This document shows, piece after piece, positions 24,113 through 54,185 of a stretch of DNA of 64,000 bases. Numbering within the stretch: position 1 is the stretch's first letter; the number at the start of each line of letters is the position of its first letter. The stretch is from Thermoflavimicrobium daqui (lineage in GTDB: Bacteria > Bacillota > Bacilli > Thermoactinomycetales > Thermoactinomycetaceae). Where the stretch lies: the NCBI RefSeq assembly GCF_003313465.1, contig NZ_KZ845665.1, forward strand, positions 434,001 to 498,000. The letters are read 5' to 3'. The notes under the pieces are model-generated. The model did no database searches and was not told the DNA's origin. It saw only the letters and a program-made list of their open reading frames with translations. A program made the translations under genes and the position numbers.

Positions 24113-24481
24113 ATTTCCACCATCCATTCAATCAATCACTTTGGGTCTAACTAGCAAAAATGATCTTTCGATCTATTTTTTGTAGATTGCTTTTATCTTA
24201 CCATAGTAAAGTCGAAAATAAAAAAATTTGAATATCTTATTGACTGTTAGCTAGTTTTACGCTTGAAAATCATAAATTGATTCATTTAGAAATACTTTAC
24301 TATGAAGAATGAAAAAAAAGCTATCTATACAAATACCGTTCCGTAATCTTTAAAATTTCGTACACTATCTTAGGAGTAATGGAATTTGTTTTATAGGTTT
24401 ATTTCCTCAGAATAGGGGGCATCCTGTAGCCAGATTGTTCATTTCCTTGAAATGGAATGGAAGGAAATGATCGATTGAGGA

Positions 24482-24802
24482 AAAGGAGGTGAATACTGTT
24501 ACTTTAAACATGAACAATGATCCGCAGACAAAGATAAATTATCAACCTTTTCAGAAAAATATTCTATAATACAAGTATTAAAATAGGGTGAAAAGTGAAA
24601 GCTAAATAGGGCTATTGATTAACCTATGTATGTAAAAAACAGAGAACCATTTTTTGCTAAGCGGAGATTTGTACAGACAGTGGACTAGAAAATAAAATCG
24701 ATGTAGTAATAAAGGTCGTTGGTAAGTAAAAAGAAGAAGCAATGATAAAATGAAAATATAAAAATGGCCACGCTTGTCTATGTTTTTAGTAACAGTGCTG
24801 CG
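24482..24802 (+). ncRNA. Structured leader with bridged ribosome-binding site (copy 1)
   Basis: Perfect SD AAAAGGAGGTG at 24481-24491, then ACTGTTACT (24495-24503), whose complement AGTAACAGT lies almost 300 bases later at 24788-24796, 6 bases before ATG 24803. The helix extends inward: AAACAT (24506-24511) with ATGTTT (24780-24785), and AACAA (24513-24517) with TTGT(C). Same layout in copies at 31581, 37426 and 48165. The leader interior holds no gene that I can identify. The 24113-24481 stretch upstream is also gene-free. Confidence 0.65.
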
Positions 24803-25003
24803 ATGATAACTATGGAAGATGTCATTAAAGCTTTTCGTTGTCGAGCCCCTGAAGAACGAATTCCTGTCCTTCGGTTAGAGTTAGACTATGAACTTGCCCA
24901 ATTATATGAAGCGATGATGGAGAATAGTCAGGTCAAAGTTGATGAATGTAAACAGAGATTAGAAAAAATTCGCAGAGAAATGTTAATGTTAGAAGCATTA
25001 TGA
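24803..25003 (+). CDS. Small coiled-coil protein, 66 aa, unknown
   Basis: Mostly helical and charged: IKAFRCRAPEERIPVLRLEL, YELAQLYEAMMENSQVKVDE, KQRLEKIRREMLMLEAL. I chose ATG 24803, not ATG 24764: the 13 codons between (including VYVFSN) are explained by a conserved RNA helix, and no ribosome-binding site precedes 24764. With the helix folded, the perfect SD at 24481-24491 is placed 13 bases from ATG 24803. Family not recognised. A perfect 28-base palindrome and terminator follow. Confidence 0.5.
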   Translation: MITMEDVIKAFRCRAPEERIPVLRLELDYELAQLYEAMMENSQVKVDECKQRLEKIRREMLMLEAL

Positions 25004-31580: not shown

Positions 31581-31621
31581 GGGGGTGGATGCTGTTACTC
31601 TACTGAGTGGCAGTGATGTAG
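31581..31621 (+). ncRNA. Bridged ribosome-binding site hairpin (copy 4, minimal)
   Basis: AAGGGGGTG (31579-31587), then CTGTTACT (31592-31599), six-base loop, AGTGGCAG (31606-31613, two G-U pairs), then 8 bases to ATG 31622. The simplest member of the leader family; the long interior of the other copies is replaced by a 6-base loop. Confidence 0.55.
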
Positions 31622-32218
31622 ATGAAAAGCAGAAATTGGCTAATTGCAGCCTTGCTCATATTTGCAGTTGTTGGAACAATATGGTGGAAATGGCCACAAG
31701 AGCAAGTGACATCAACGCAAAAAGGAGCAAATCAAGGAAAAGCAGCGGTTACTCATGCAGATTGTCGTGAAGAAGAGCAAGCTGAAACAGGATATTGTGC
31801 ACCAAACTTTACTTTGACCTCACTTGATGGTAAAAAAGTGGAGTTATATCAAAATCATGGGAAGCCAACTTTTCTTAACTTCTGGGCATCTTGGTGTGAA
31901 CCATGTAAAAGAGAGATGCCAATGCTTCAGAAGGCCTATCAAAAGTATAAAGGACAAGTTAACTTTTTGATGGTAAACGCAACAGCATTTGACGATGAGA
32001 AAAAAATGCGCGATTATGTAAAGCAGAACGGCTTTAATTTTCCCATTCTTTTAGATCCATATCGACCGAAATATGTAACAACTACACAAACTCATTATGG
32101 TGTTTTAGGCTTTCCGATGACTTTCATTGTGGATGCGAAAGGGAAAATCATGTATAAACACCCAGGGGAGATGAATCAAGAAGTACTTGATGATATTATG
32201 CAAAAACTGACCAACTAG
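31622..32218 (+). CDS. TlpA/ResA-like membrane-anchored thioredoxin
   Basis: 198 residues. Residues 5-23 form a signal anchor (WLIAALLIFAVVGTIWW). The thioredoxin domain carries FWASWCEPCKREMP with the active-site CEPC, and the cis-Pro in GFPMTFIVDAKG. A cysteine pair before the domain (DCREEEQAETGYCAPNF) is unusual for ResA. Likely an extracytoplasmic thiol-disulfide reductase working with CcdA encoded 24 bases downstream, which would supply reductant from the cytoplasm. ATG 31622 is served by the hairpin-bridged SD described above. Confidence 0.82.
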   Translation: MKSRNWLIAALLIFAVVGTIWWKWPQEQVTSTQKGANQGKAAVTHADCREEEQAETGYCAPNFTLTSLDGKKVELYQNHGKPTFLNFWASWCEPCKREMPMLQKAYQKYKGQVNFLMVNATAFDDEKKMRDYVKQNGFNFPILLDPYRPKYVTTTQTHYGVLGFPMTFIVDAKGKIMYKHPGEMNQEVLDDIMQKLTN

Positions 32219-37425: not shown

Positions 37426-37538
37426 AAAAGGAGGTGGATACTGTTACTTAAATATAGGCAATAGTCCATGAATGCGGACAAATAAAGATAACGTTAATCA
37501 TGGATATATTCGTCTATGTTTTCAGTAACAGGAGCCTG
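37426..37538 (+). ncRNA. Structured leader with bridged ribosome-binding site (copy 2)
   Basis: AAAAGGAGGTG (37426-37436), CTGTTACT (37441-37448) pairing with AGTAACAG (37524-37531), 7 bases before ATG 37539. The helix extends: AAA with TTT (37450-37452/37520-37522), then TATAGGC (37453-37459) with GTCTATG (37512-37518). Inside is GTCC/GGAC. Together about 18 pairs around a 50-base interior, similar in sequence to copy 1. Confidence 0.65.
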
Positions 37539-38153
37539 ATGGCTGTTAAACGTCAAGATGCTTGGATGGCGGAAGATGATATGGTATTAGCAGAAGTAAC
37601 ACTTCGGCATATTCGTGAAGGCGGGACTCAGCTGGCTGCTTTTGAAGAAGTAGCACAAAGGCTAGGTAGAACCCCTGCAGCTTGTGGATTCCGCTGGAAT
37701 AGCTCTGTAAGAAAAAAATATGAAGCTGCAATTCAAATCGCAAAAGCTCAAAGACAAAAAAGAAGTCAGGAGAGAAGAATTTCTTATACTACATATACAT
37801 CTAGAGAGGATCATTTACAAGATCCAAATTATTCACTGGATCATATAATCCGTTTTTTACGGCAACATAAAAACGAGGTAGGCGAGCTTCGTAGGCAACA
37901 GAAACAGTTAGAAAAAGAATTACAAGAGCGAGAAGAGCAGATGGAGAGATTAGAAAGAGAAAATTATGCAATGAAAAGTCAGCTTGACTCTATGCAAAAT
38001 AATTATCAAGTAGTCAATGATGATTATCGTACATTAATTCAAATCATGGAGCGGGCTCGAAAGATGACTATACTGGATGAAGAGGAGAATGGAATGCATA
38101 AAGCTAAATTCCGTATGGAGACGAATGGGAATTTAGAAAGGATTGATAAATAG
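37539..38153 (+). CDS. rsfA: RsfA-family prespore-specific transcriptional regulator
   Basis: 204 residues from ATG 37539 (the frame extends to ATG 37500, but those 13 codons form the leader helix). The Myb/SANT-like N-terminus [40 protein letters not shown] and [20 protein letters not shown] is diagnostic of RsfA/YlbO; a coiled coil ([20 protein letters not shown]) follows. In B. subtilis rsfA is transcribed by sigma-F in the forespore and modulates sigma-F-dependent genes. The neighbouring gene is ylbP as in B. subtilis. AGGAG next to the ATG coincides with the helix 3' arm. Confidence 0.88.
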
Positions 38154-48164: not shown

Positions 48165-48328
48165 AGAGAGGTGAAAACCTGCTACTTTAACTATGAACTG
48201 GCTGATAGAGCATATAGGATAACTCGATGTTAAGGCTAATGCCAAGCTTTATAGATAGAATGAAATGAAATAGGAAATCTGGTTATATATATACTTTGTC
48301 TATACCGAGAAACAAGTAGCAGGGAAGT
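48165..48328 (+). ncRNA. Structured leader with bridged ribosome-binding site (copy 3)
   Basis: AAAGAGAGGTG (48163-48173), CCTGCTACTT (48178-48187) pairing perfectly with AAGTAGCAGG (48314-48323), 5 bases before ATG 48329. Relative to copies 1 and 2 the middle pair T-A is C-G, a compensatory change. Inner ATGAAC (48193-48198) faces GTCTAT (48298-48303), as in copy 1. Confidence 0.65.
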
Positions 48329-49588
48329 ATGAATTCAGTAGAAAAAAGTATGATTCGTGATGTAAATCTAGCATCACAAGGTCGTATGAAAATGGACTGG
48401 GCATGGGAGCATATGGCGATCTTAAGTCGTTTACGTGAAAAATGGTTAGTGCAAAAACCATTTGAAGGCAGAAGAGTAGCTATCTCATTACATCTTGAGG
48501 CGAAAACAGCTTGTCTTGCTGAGTTGCTTCATGATGCAGGGGCAGAGGTAACGATTACGGGGAGCAACCCTTTATCTACGCAGGATGATGTATGTGCGGC
48601 TTTAGTACAAGCAGGAGTAACTGTATTTGCTAAGTATAATCCGTCTCCAGAGGAATATAAGCAGCACTTGCTACTAACCTTAGAGACACGACCTGAGCTT
48701 ATTATTGATGATGGTGGGGATTTAGTTAGCTTACTTCACTCCGAAAGGCAAGATCTGATTGAATATGTACGGGGTGGATGTGAAGAGACAACCACTGGAA
48801 TTAACCGCCTCGTATCTTTAGAAAAATCAGGGGAATTAAAGTTTCCGATGGTTGCTGTAAATGATGCTTATTCTAAATGCTTTTTCGATAATCGATATGG
48901 TACAGGGCAATCCGTTTGGGATGGAATTAATCGTACGACTAATTTAGTTGTTGCTGGTAAAACAGTTGTAGTCATCGGTTATGGTTGGTGTGGAAAAGGT
49001 GTAGCACTTCGAGCCAAAGGTTTAGGAGCCAAGGTAATAGTAACTGAAGTAGATCCGATTAAAGCGATTGAAGCTCATATGGACGGTTATACCGTTTTAC
49101 CGATGATTGAGGCAGCTAAACGAGGAGATATCTTTGTAACGGTTACAGGAAACAAAAATGTAATTAATGGAATGCATTACCGCGTGATGAAAAATGGGGC
49201 TATACTTGCGAATGCTGGTCATTTTGACATTGAAATTGATAAGATTTCTTTGGAAAGACAAGCGGTTAACCAACGTGTTGTCCGTAAAGATATTACGGAA
49301 TATGTCATGGAAGATGGACGGAAAATCTACTTACTTGCGGAAGGACGGTTGGTCAATTTAGCTGCTGGTGATGGTCATCCAGCAGAAATTATGGATATGA
49401 CCTTTGCTTTACAAGCTTTAAGCCTTCTGTATATCCATGAAAACCATGGGAAAATTGGACCATCCGTAATTGATGTTCCATATCAGTTGGATTCACAAGT
49501 AGCTCGGTACTATTTGGATTCACAAGGTATCCAAATTGATGATATGACTGAAGAGCAAAAACAATATCAAGCTAGCTGGAATTTGTAG
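48329..49588 (+). CDS. ahcY: Adenosylhomocysteinase
   Basis: 419 residues. RVAISLHLEAKTACLAELLH, EETTTGINRLVSLEKSGELK, VNDAYSKCFFDNRYGTGQS, VVVIGYGWCGKGVALRAKGL (NAD site), NAGHFDIEID and DGRLVNLAAGDGHPAEIMD-type ending (LAEGRLVNLAAGDGHP). Hydrolyses S-adenosylhomocysteine to adenosine and homocysteine. B. subtilis lacks this enzyme and uses MtnN plus LuxS, so its presence is notable for a Bacillales genome. Translated from the hairpin-bridged leader; terminator follows. Confidence 0.93.
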   Translation: MNSVEKSMIRDVNLASQGRMKMDWAWEHMAILSRLREKWLVQKPFEGRRVAISLHLEAKTACLAELLHDAGAEVTITGSNPLSTQDDVCAALVQAGVTVFAKYNPSPEEYKQHLLLTLETRPELIIDDGGDLVSLLHSERQDLIEYVRGGCEETTTGINRLVSLEKSGELKFPMVAVNDAYSKCFFDNRYGTGQSVWDGINRTTNLVVAGKTVVVIGYGWCGKGVALRAKGLGAKVIVTEVDPIKAIEAHMDGYTVLPMIEAAKRGDIFVTVTGNKNVINGMHYRVMKNGAILANAGHFDIEIDKISLERQAVNQRVVRKDITEYVMEDGRKIYLLAEGRLVNLAAGDGHPAEIMDMTFALQALSLLYIHENHGKIGPSVIDVPYQLDSQVARYYLDSQGIQIDDMTEEQKQYQASWNL

Positions 49589-53606: not shown

Positions 53607-54185
53607 GTGTTAAAAAGATTTTTTATAGGATTGTTTGCGCTTAGTTTCCTCGGAGCTTCTGTATATTTTGCAGGAGGATTCGGGATTGTTATCAAAAAAG
53701 AGAGATCACAAGTTGCCGCACAACAAAAGAAGCCAAAACCAAAAGAAACGAAACAAGTTAAAATGGGCGAAACAATTGAAATCCAAGATGTGAAGGTTTC
53801 TGTTGACTTTGCTAGAGCACGTCAAGTAGGTTTATTCGGTGATGGTGCACCTCTTAATGACCATTTTGTTTATATTGATATGATTTTTGAGCAAAGCAAA
53901 GATCGATCAACTATGGTAACAATACTTAATCGCTTGAAGTTAGTCGATGCCAATCAAAAACAATATACAAATGCAGTCAAACCTATTATAAAAACATTAG
54001 ATAGTACTGATCATAAAGTTTTGGGTAAGATTGCGTTTGACGTTTCTAATAGCGATTCTTATGAACTTATTTATGATGATTCTAAAGCAAATGTTCGTTA
54101 TGTATGTAAACTAAAAGTAGCCGATTTGCCAAATTTAAAGCAAAAAAAGACTAAAAACGTAGAACCACAAACAGGAAATCAATAA
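53607..54185 (+). CDS. Secreted/membrane-anchored protein with DUF4352-like domain
   Basis: 192 residues, GTG start after GGGGGCATGCTGTC. N-terminal hydrophobic segment (FIGLFALSFLGASVYFAGGF), a lysine-rich linker (KKPKPKETKQVKMG), then a beta-sandwich-like domain (IEIQDVKVSVDFARARQVGL, FVYIDMIFEQSKDRSTMVTI, KLVDANQKQY, GKIAFDVSNSDSYELIYDD) resembling DUF4352/Telokin-like extracellular domains. The insertion between pbpB and spoVD is not seen in B. subtilis. It has its own terminators on both sides, so it is transcribed separately. Function unknown. Confidence 0.6.
   Translation: MLKRFFIGLFALSFLGASVYFAGGFGIVIKKERSQVAAQQKKPKPKETKQVKMGETIEIQDVKVSVDFARARQVGLFGDGAPLNDHFVYIDMIFEQSKDRSTMVTILNRLKLVDANQKQYTNAVKPIIKTLDSTDHKVLGKIAFDVSNSDSYELIYDDSKANVRYVCKLKVADLPNLKQKKTKNVEPQTGNQ

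Follow-up and report, generated by a model that had tools for sequence, protein, structure and literature searches.

Four leaders in the window and their genes

The window, i.e., the whole 64,000-nucleotide stretch of Thermoflavimicrobium daqui DNA analysed here, contains four genes on the forward (+) strand that start with ATG at 24803, 31622, 37539, and 48329 and are each preceded by a Shine-Dalgarno (SD) sequence, an arm, and a complementary arm. These leaders had been pointed out in a preliminary description made from the sequence alone, and all four were found at the genes named there.

Copy 1 lies upstream of a gene for a conserved 66-aa protein of unknown function (24803..25003), for which no Pfam match (with a longer frame) and no NCBIfam match was obtained. 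Between the host SD AAAAGGAG (24481..24488; core GGAGG at 24485-24489) and the ATG lies a stretch of 307 nt (24489..24795), an internally decayed IS607-type element according to the reading given below, which ends in GTCTATGTTTTTAGTAACAG and is absent from the ortholog L369. Since AG occurs at both junctions, the two ends of the element could also be drawn as much as 2 nt further left. The 5' arm CTGTTACT at the left end (24496..24503) and the 3' arm AGTAACAG at the right end (24788..24795) enclose 284 nt. The ATG at 24764 falls within the inserted element, and 24803 is taken as the start, as the preliminary description had it. Further upstream of the 66-aa gene, a GGGGGCATCCTGTAGCCAG-like block (24414-24440) was observed, which recurs before the orthologs in several genomes of the family; it gave no meaningful Rfam match and is perhaps a separate regulatory RNA.

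Copy 2 is the most reduced, consisting of the SD GGGGGTG and the hairpin CTGTTACT-6 nt-AGTGGCAG (31581..31613; GGGGG at 31581-31585, arms at 31592-31599 and 31606-31613, 6 nt enclosed). It precedes a gene for a ResA/TlpA-like, thioredoxin-like thiol-disulfide oxidoreductase (31622..32218), with Pfam AhpC-TSA and Redoxin over the cut-off and an NCBIfam ResA match below it. Copy 3 (37434..37531) follows the host SD AAAAGGAG (37426..37433; core GGAGG at 37430-37434), has the arms CTGTTACT (37441-37448) and AGTAACAG (37524-37531) with 75 nt between them, and stands before a gene for an RsfA-family regulator (37539..38153; NCBIfam TIGR02894, 163.4 bits, cut-off 126.45). In copy 4, a second SD, GAGAGGTG (48166..48173), resembles the site within tnpB (AAAAAGAGAGGTGAAAAACCTGCT), the ortholog L244 serving as a further comparison, and the arms CTGCTACT (48179-48186) and AGTAGCAG (48315-48322) span 48179..48322 and enclose 128 nt; the gene downstream is ahcY, encoding adenosylhomocysteinase (48329..49588; NCBIfam NF004005, 656.4 bits, cut-off 275).

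With the helix excised, the SD core is 13, 14, 13, and 13 nt from the ATG in copies 1 to 4, and the 3' arm ends 6-8 nt before it. The helix formed by the arms (P1) has predicted probabilities of 1.00, 0.99, 1.00, and 0.95, respectively. The fold of copy 3 has a z-score of -4.61; the whole-leader folds of copies 1 and 4 were not better than those of shuffled sequences (z -0.68 and -0.89), with P1 present in both. The enclosed lengths first reported (about 284, 75, 126, and 6 nt) were about right in size and wrong in order relative to the ATGs, as 6 nt belong to 31622 and about 126 nt to 48329. Of the inner pairing first ascribed to copies 1-3, the sequence GTCTATGTTTT is exact in copies 1 and 3 only.

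The 19-nt 5' motif (up to 3 mismatches) matches the window three times against a shuffle mean of 0.10, and the 20-nt 3' motif twice against 0.00. Rescanning the window with the same criteria returned the four copies and one more set at 53686, whose supposed start (53934) sits within the ORF 53607-54185; this candidate was taken as chance.

Identity of the elements

The right-arm motif occurs in many copies across the same bacterial family. It is found on both strands, and some copies are inversely paired at the ends of elements of ~1.1-1.5 kb that contain tnpB sequence, which in L088 is split over two frames. In 23 family genomes, the pattern GAGGTGN{3,6}CTGYTACT matched 42 times and its reversed form 4 times, the 42 being a mixture of leaders and tnpB-internal sites. 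A scan of named genomes with the exact right-end motif gave at least 112 stretches. The 80 matches listed include Thermoactinomycetaceae, Bacillus, Sporosarcina, and Domibacillus, with sizeable numbers from Selenomonas, Mitsuokella, Anaerovibrio, and Sporomusa; the few listed that came from MAGs of other phyla were taken as chance.

The proteins and the RNA of the fuller copies place the elements in the IS607 family. TnpB of L087 matches 8IAZ, the ISFba1 TnpB (E 1.3e-96). The protein encoded before tnpB in L113 and L133 (TnpA) consists of a MerR-type HTH and a serine resolvase domain (PF00239), and that of L113 is assigned to NF033518 transpos_IS607 (216.5 bits, cut-off 110). An IS607 TnpA is thus present in the autonomous L113 and L133; the relics in the window have no genes left. 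RAGATH-18, the TnpB guide RNA, scored above the Rfam gathering score in four of six loci. It was not found by Rfam in the window relics L001 and L003, whose interior has been lost, and Rfam gave no match anywhere in the window. The four helices in the window are almost certainly the paired ends of relics of such IS607-family transposons, i.e., elements with a TnpA recombinase, a TnpB nuclease, and a RAGATH-18 guide RNA. An origin from IS200/IS605 elements with a Y1 TnpA was considered and rejected: PF01797 occurs in 7 of 8 genomes, yet none of the 12 fetched loci (L325-L336) has the right end at fewer than 4 mismatches, and the two-gene copies carry an IS607 TnpA instead.

The genome of the window (G000) contains nine tnpB-type matches (TNB; contigs C13, C20, C5, C3, C11, C2, and C1). 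They lie mostly in short or broken frames, with one open frame of 318 aa at C13:65969. For two RAGATH-18 matches in this genome (L388 at G000:C3:89427 and L408 at C2:87397), a right end was not recognised at the usual spacing.

Insertion directly after the Shine-Dalgarno core

Comparison of filled and empty sites established that, in host genes, the element inserts directly behind the SD core AAGGAG. For copy 1, the empty site of the congener L369 reads, letter for letter, AAAAGGAG/TGCTGCGATGG (AAAAGGAG/TGCTGCG-ATG; the slash marks the junction), and the filled site in the window reads AAAAGGAG/GTGAATACTG…AGTAACAG/TGCTGCGATGA. The atpD site is empty in G013 (TTAAGGAG/GGAAATAAGATG, i.e., TTAAGGAG/GGAAATAAG-ATG), and in G022 the element stands between the same letters. 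In these two exact cases nothing was lost and no target was duplicated, the junction being ambiguous by at most 2 nt. The site of copy 3 agrees with insertion at the SD, its ortholog (L367, AATAAGGAG/GAGTTTTTTTTG) having diverged. Copies 1 and 3 and the atpD element are each immediately preceded by AAGGAG, which contains the predicted target-adjacent motif (TAM): as given in the main text of PMC11061315, cleavage by 23 IS607 TnpBs (22 strains) requires the TAM AGGAG (18/22) or GAGGG (4/22). The TAM AGGAG is the SD core. In that main text, the terms Shine-Dalgarno, start codon, ribosome, RBS, and inverted repeats do not occur, and among the open-licence papers listed, none ties TnpB or IS607 to the SD. 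A mobile element with the SD as its target is likewise absent from the preliminary description.

Orthologs without the element were found for trxB, gpsA, odhB, dnaN, atpD, tkt, sufU, and ispF. For copy 2, the orthologs L338 and L339 have the SD-hairpin-ATG arrangement, and L340 and L341 lack it. The gene ahcY is present in all 23 family genomes, and the element in 4 of 19 leaders (18 plus that of the window, leaving out G010, G013, G019, and G021), namely, in three genomes of the genus and in Paenactinomyces (G012), the latter being of a different type. In pyrG, the element is present in all three genomes of the genus. Host genes assigned over NCBIfam cut-offs include dnaN, pyrG, trxB, tkt, ispF, greA, and sufU; for gpsA and atpD, where the fetched gene was cut, the assignment is the best match below the cut-off. 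Several of the genes that carry an element are essential in B. subtilis.

Position of the insertions relative to start codons

Right ends were found without asking for a gene, and yet they are followed by one far more often than the TAM would predict. From the stretches with the exact right-end motif (at least 112), 109 right ends were retained after removal of duplicates and of ends with fewer than 260 nt downstream. The ATG of an ORF of at least 60 aa begins at +5 to +11 in 62 of these 109, against 3, 4, 8, 8, and 7 of 109 at five other 7-nt offsets and 3.7% at random positions. When GTG and TTG are included, the count rises to 80 of 109, compared with 10-20 at the controls. At the same loci, 181 of 1453 AGGAG sites (12%) precede such an ATG (P ~3e-28 against the right ends); within the window, 15 of 147 do so. 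Insertions before start codons are therefore four to five times over-represented even given the AGGAG target. This is the pattern expected when insertions at such positions are tolerated and those at other places are removed by selection.

Another set was collected by RAGATH-18 alone, i.e., without the right-end motif; its matches came from 17 of 398 phylum genomes, from 1 of 13 in one class, and from 86 of 380 in the class of G240. From 60 loci looked at, 10 with an unrecognised right end were dropped, and a start codon stands at +4 to +12 in 36 of the remaining 50 right ends (7, 7, 4, and 11 at other offsets). Six of the ten dropped loci (L410, L412, L414, L418, L419, and L432, in the class of G240) have a further type of right end, TATCGTAGCGG, downstream of the RAGATH-18 match, which the right-end pattern misses.

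Among 67 family elements, 63 have no SD-like 5-mer 4-18 nt before the start codon; a 4-mer is present in 19 of the 67. Copy 3 is among the four exceptions, its junction reading AGGAG, which gives an SD-like 5-mer close to the ATG. For the 63, therefore, translation either does without an SD or uses one across the helix.

Complementarity and covariation of the arms

The 67 elements were picked for pairing, SD, and ORF from loci fetched by motif or orthology, so that their pairing rate is no estimate; the P1 probability is at least 0.5 in 58 and below 0.5 in 9 of them. The inner arms had no role in this choice. In the 56 longer elements, they pair at -8.02 kcal/mol with their own partners against -6.27 kcal/mol with swapped partners (0/5000); the signal comes from 40 diverse elements (0/5000), the 16 similar short type B elements alone giving 360/5000.

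Between clades, the arms are complementary and covary. Over 15 distinct arm/right-end pairs, whose rows from other clades were found by pairing (L417 and L436 being short elements, not tnpB genes), 97.0% of cells are paired, compared with at most 74.4% in slid registers. Two-sided changes occupy 15 cells against 3.7 in shuffles (0/500), and the covariation score is 0.440 against 0.251 in shuffles (0/500) and at most 0.238 in slid registers. Two other measures did not exceed the shuffles in this comparison, namely, the number of pairs with a two-sided change (4 vs 2.4, 52/500) and of further pair types (9 vs 9.1, 397/500), and pair 8 is broken in 4 of the 15 rows. A count with loose motifs, in which chance matches within ORFs dilute the signal, covers 117 pairs, of which 68 are fully paired, with 246 paired cells against 231.4 (sd 3.2; 1/5000 permutations) and 216 Watson-Crick cells against 192.4 (2/5000). 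All these counts concern copies that are related rather than independent, from one family studied closely and others by sample. The earlier proposal of a multi-copy family with a long-range helix from SD to start before unrelated genes is thus backed by sequence evidence, including covarying arms.

Upstream of the TlpA-like gene in G001, L339 has an SD-hairpin-ATG with a wholly different stem, CCGTT...AACGG. It was not counted as a compensatory change, as it may be the relic of a CGG-ended clade at the same gene. The right arm can also pair locally (ACATGGAC-ATTT-GTCTATGT), and guide-RNA folding and host translation may conceivably compete for this strand.

A second Shine-Dalgarno sequence within tnpB

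The two ends of the element are complementary to each other, and many elements have a further site complementary to the right end inside tnpB, with an SD and arm of its own (GGAGGTG...CTGCTAC). This site is fixed at synonymous positions: its codons GGT (Gly), NCT (Pro, Thr, or Ser), and GCT (Ala) are each used in 18 of 18 copies, many of them closely related, against a background of 34-37% in the surrounding reading frame, motif included. The count covers 18 of 38 tnpB-like loops, the 20 without the amino-acid motif being left out. The loop that holds the site sits after an SRKYE-like helix of TnpB, and it reads GGAGGTGAATACCGTTACAG (L382) or AAAGGAGATCGTTACTG (L406) in clades where CTGTAACGG or CAGTAACGG takes the place of AGTAGCAG as the right end.

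Of 33 elements with enough sequence, 14 have, upstream of their right end, an SD and behind it an arm that pairs over 8 bp or more; three of these 14 come from G240 and three from G317. Shuffling the right ends gave such a site in 2 of 660 trials, and in the other 19 elements none was seen upstream. Short derivatives hold another SD plus arm within the element that resembles this stretch of tnpB. Both arrangements exist, i.e., use of the host SD, as in copy 1, or of an SD inside the element, as in the atpD element. Copy 4 belongs to the latter: a congener keeps the host AAGGAG before AAAGAGAGGTGAAAACCTGC, and the window reads AGCTAG there.

Proposed mechanism and alternative explanations

The leaders are quite probably relics of SD-targeting transposons in which an RNA helix re-joins the SD to the start codon, and this is the best explanation for the evidence as a whole. 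On this view they are old, internally deleted copies of IS607-family TnpB/RAGATH-18 elements that inserted after the SD core AAGGAG and so separated the SD from the start codon. Repair would take place at the RNA level, where the right end (AGTAGCAG, CTGTAACGG, etc., mostly 5-11 nt before the host start) would pair with an arm that follows an SD. This arm would be either the left end, beside the host's own SD (copies 1 and 3), or the arm of the SD-plus-arm site, which lies in the tnpB coding sequence of autonomous elements and is kept in short derivatives (copy 4). The helix would loop out between 6 nt and ~0.7 kb with the tnpB-internal arm, or the whole element with the left-end arm, and place the SD ~13 nt from the AUG for the ribosome. 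Translation of the host genes, including housekeeping genes, would continue, and relics could shrink down to SD-hairpin-ATG.

That the helix bridges the SD to the host start codon is itself probable. It would form in the mRNA, ribosomes would initiate across it, and it would be kept for that reason. SD placement, spacing, covariation, and codon constraint favour initiation via an SD across the helix; the spacing of ~13 nt with the helix excised is long and counts against bridging. A broader view, that this is a class of transposons living in ribosome-binding sites and bringing a portable one, can be called fairly likely. The SD plus arm of tnpB would then rebuild the initiation site of any gene, essential ones included, TnpB would use the SD as its target-adjacent motif, residues of the TnpB loop would have given way to SD plus arm, and hundreds of bases would be looped out.

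The principal alternative is that arm complementarity serves the transposon only, as an end-joining DNA feature or a guide-RNA stem, that proximity to an SD follows from the TAM, and that the hosts start without an SD. Some proximity is indeed expected from the TAM AGGAG (PMC11061315, main text) and from the GG target that IS607 has according to excerpts of PMC6188088, and a terminal inverted-repeat (IR) stem is described for group B IStrons, which have an IS607 component, in excerpts of PMC4227781. This explanation is nevertheless unlikely, as an ORF with ATG follows 57% of insertions against 12% of AGGAG sites, the tnpB-internal arm comes after an SD and away from the element ends, G-U pairs are used, and relics without a guide RNA retain SD-hairpin-ATG. 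Moreover, the abstract of PMC6188088 describes IS607 as having no terminal inverted repeats, a legend in the same paper marking short sequences shared by both ends.

Removal of the element from the host RNA by splicing or by cutting and ligation, which would join SD and AUG covalently, would be in line with IStrons, which are related in target and end structure and splice by a group I intron (PMC4227781, excerpts). It is very unlikely here: no group I intron was found in six loci, where Rfam returned only RAGATH-18 (E up to 1), and the relics L002 and L008 with their 6-nt loops cannot be ribozymes, so that splicing is ruled out for them. The least credible reading, a riboswitch-like class with a sensing interior as first suggested, or a protein-bound regulatory leader, fits the conserved stem sequence before unrelated genes and was dropped once the right-end motif proved to be the paired ends of TnpB elements. 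The interiors, transposon remains from 6 nt up to a full tnpB element, vary in size (6 to ~300 nt among leaders) and sequence, the leader is missing altogether from empty orthologs, and Rfam is blank in the window and gives only the TnpB guide RNA RAGATH-18 in fuller copies.

If SD-targeting with repair by a helix holds true, it would explain in biological terms why IS607 TnpBs have the motif AGGAG, which is a ribosome-binding site found ahead of a large fraction of Firmicutes genes. A further prediction is that initiation takes place in vivo over helices with hundreds of enclosed bases, at housekeeping genes and in several groups of Firmicutes.

Comparison with known systems

In phage T4 gene 25 or 38, a hairpin between SD and AUG shortens the distance between them. 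Such hairpins concern single genes, are short, and are not known to stem from a transposon, unlike the elements described here. MITE-like deletion derivatives of IS elements are short, non-autonomous copies that keep their ends; the present elements also keep an SD plus arm and lie in one orientation between SD and ATG.

The closest relatives are the IS607 TnpB systems with a RAGATH-18 reRNA (ISFba1 and others; PMC11061315), which are like those found here in TnpB sequence, RAGATH-18, and the TAM AGGAG; an IS607 TnpA is likewise present in the autonomous copies studied here. Insertion at an SD, pairing of the ends, and an SD in tnpB are, however, not described in those terms in the main text of that paper. 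Group B IStrons, as described in excerpts of PMC4227781, share with the present elements an IS607 component, a target ending in GG (e.g., GAGG), and a terminal IR stem, and they have a 3' repeat complementary to the 3' IR, comparable to the local pairing of the right arm. In that group, 58% of the insertions with gene predictions are inside genes. IStron insertions are made harmless through RNA, as is proposed here, but they carry a group I intron and splice, whereas no group I intron was found by Rfam in six loci of the present elements and bridging of the SD is proposed instead. If this is true, the elements would represent the translational counterpart of the self-splicing IStron, which suggests a second way, beside splicing, for a mobile element to make its insertion harmless.
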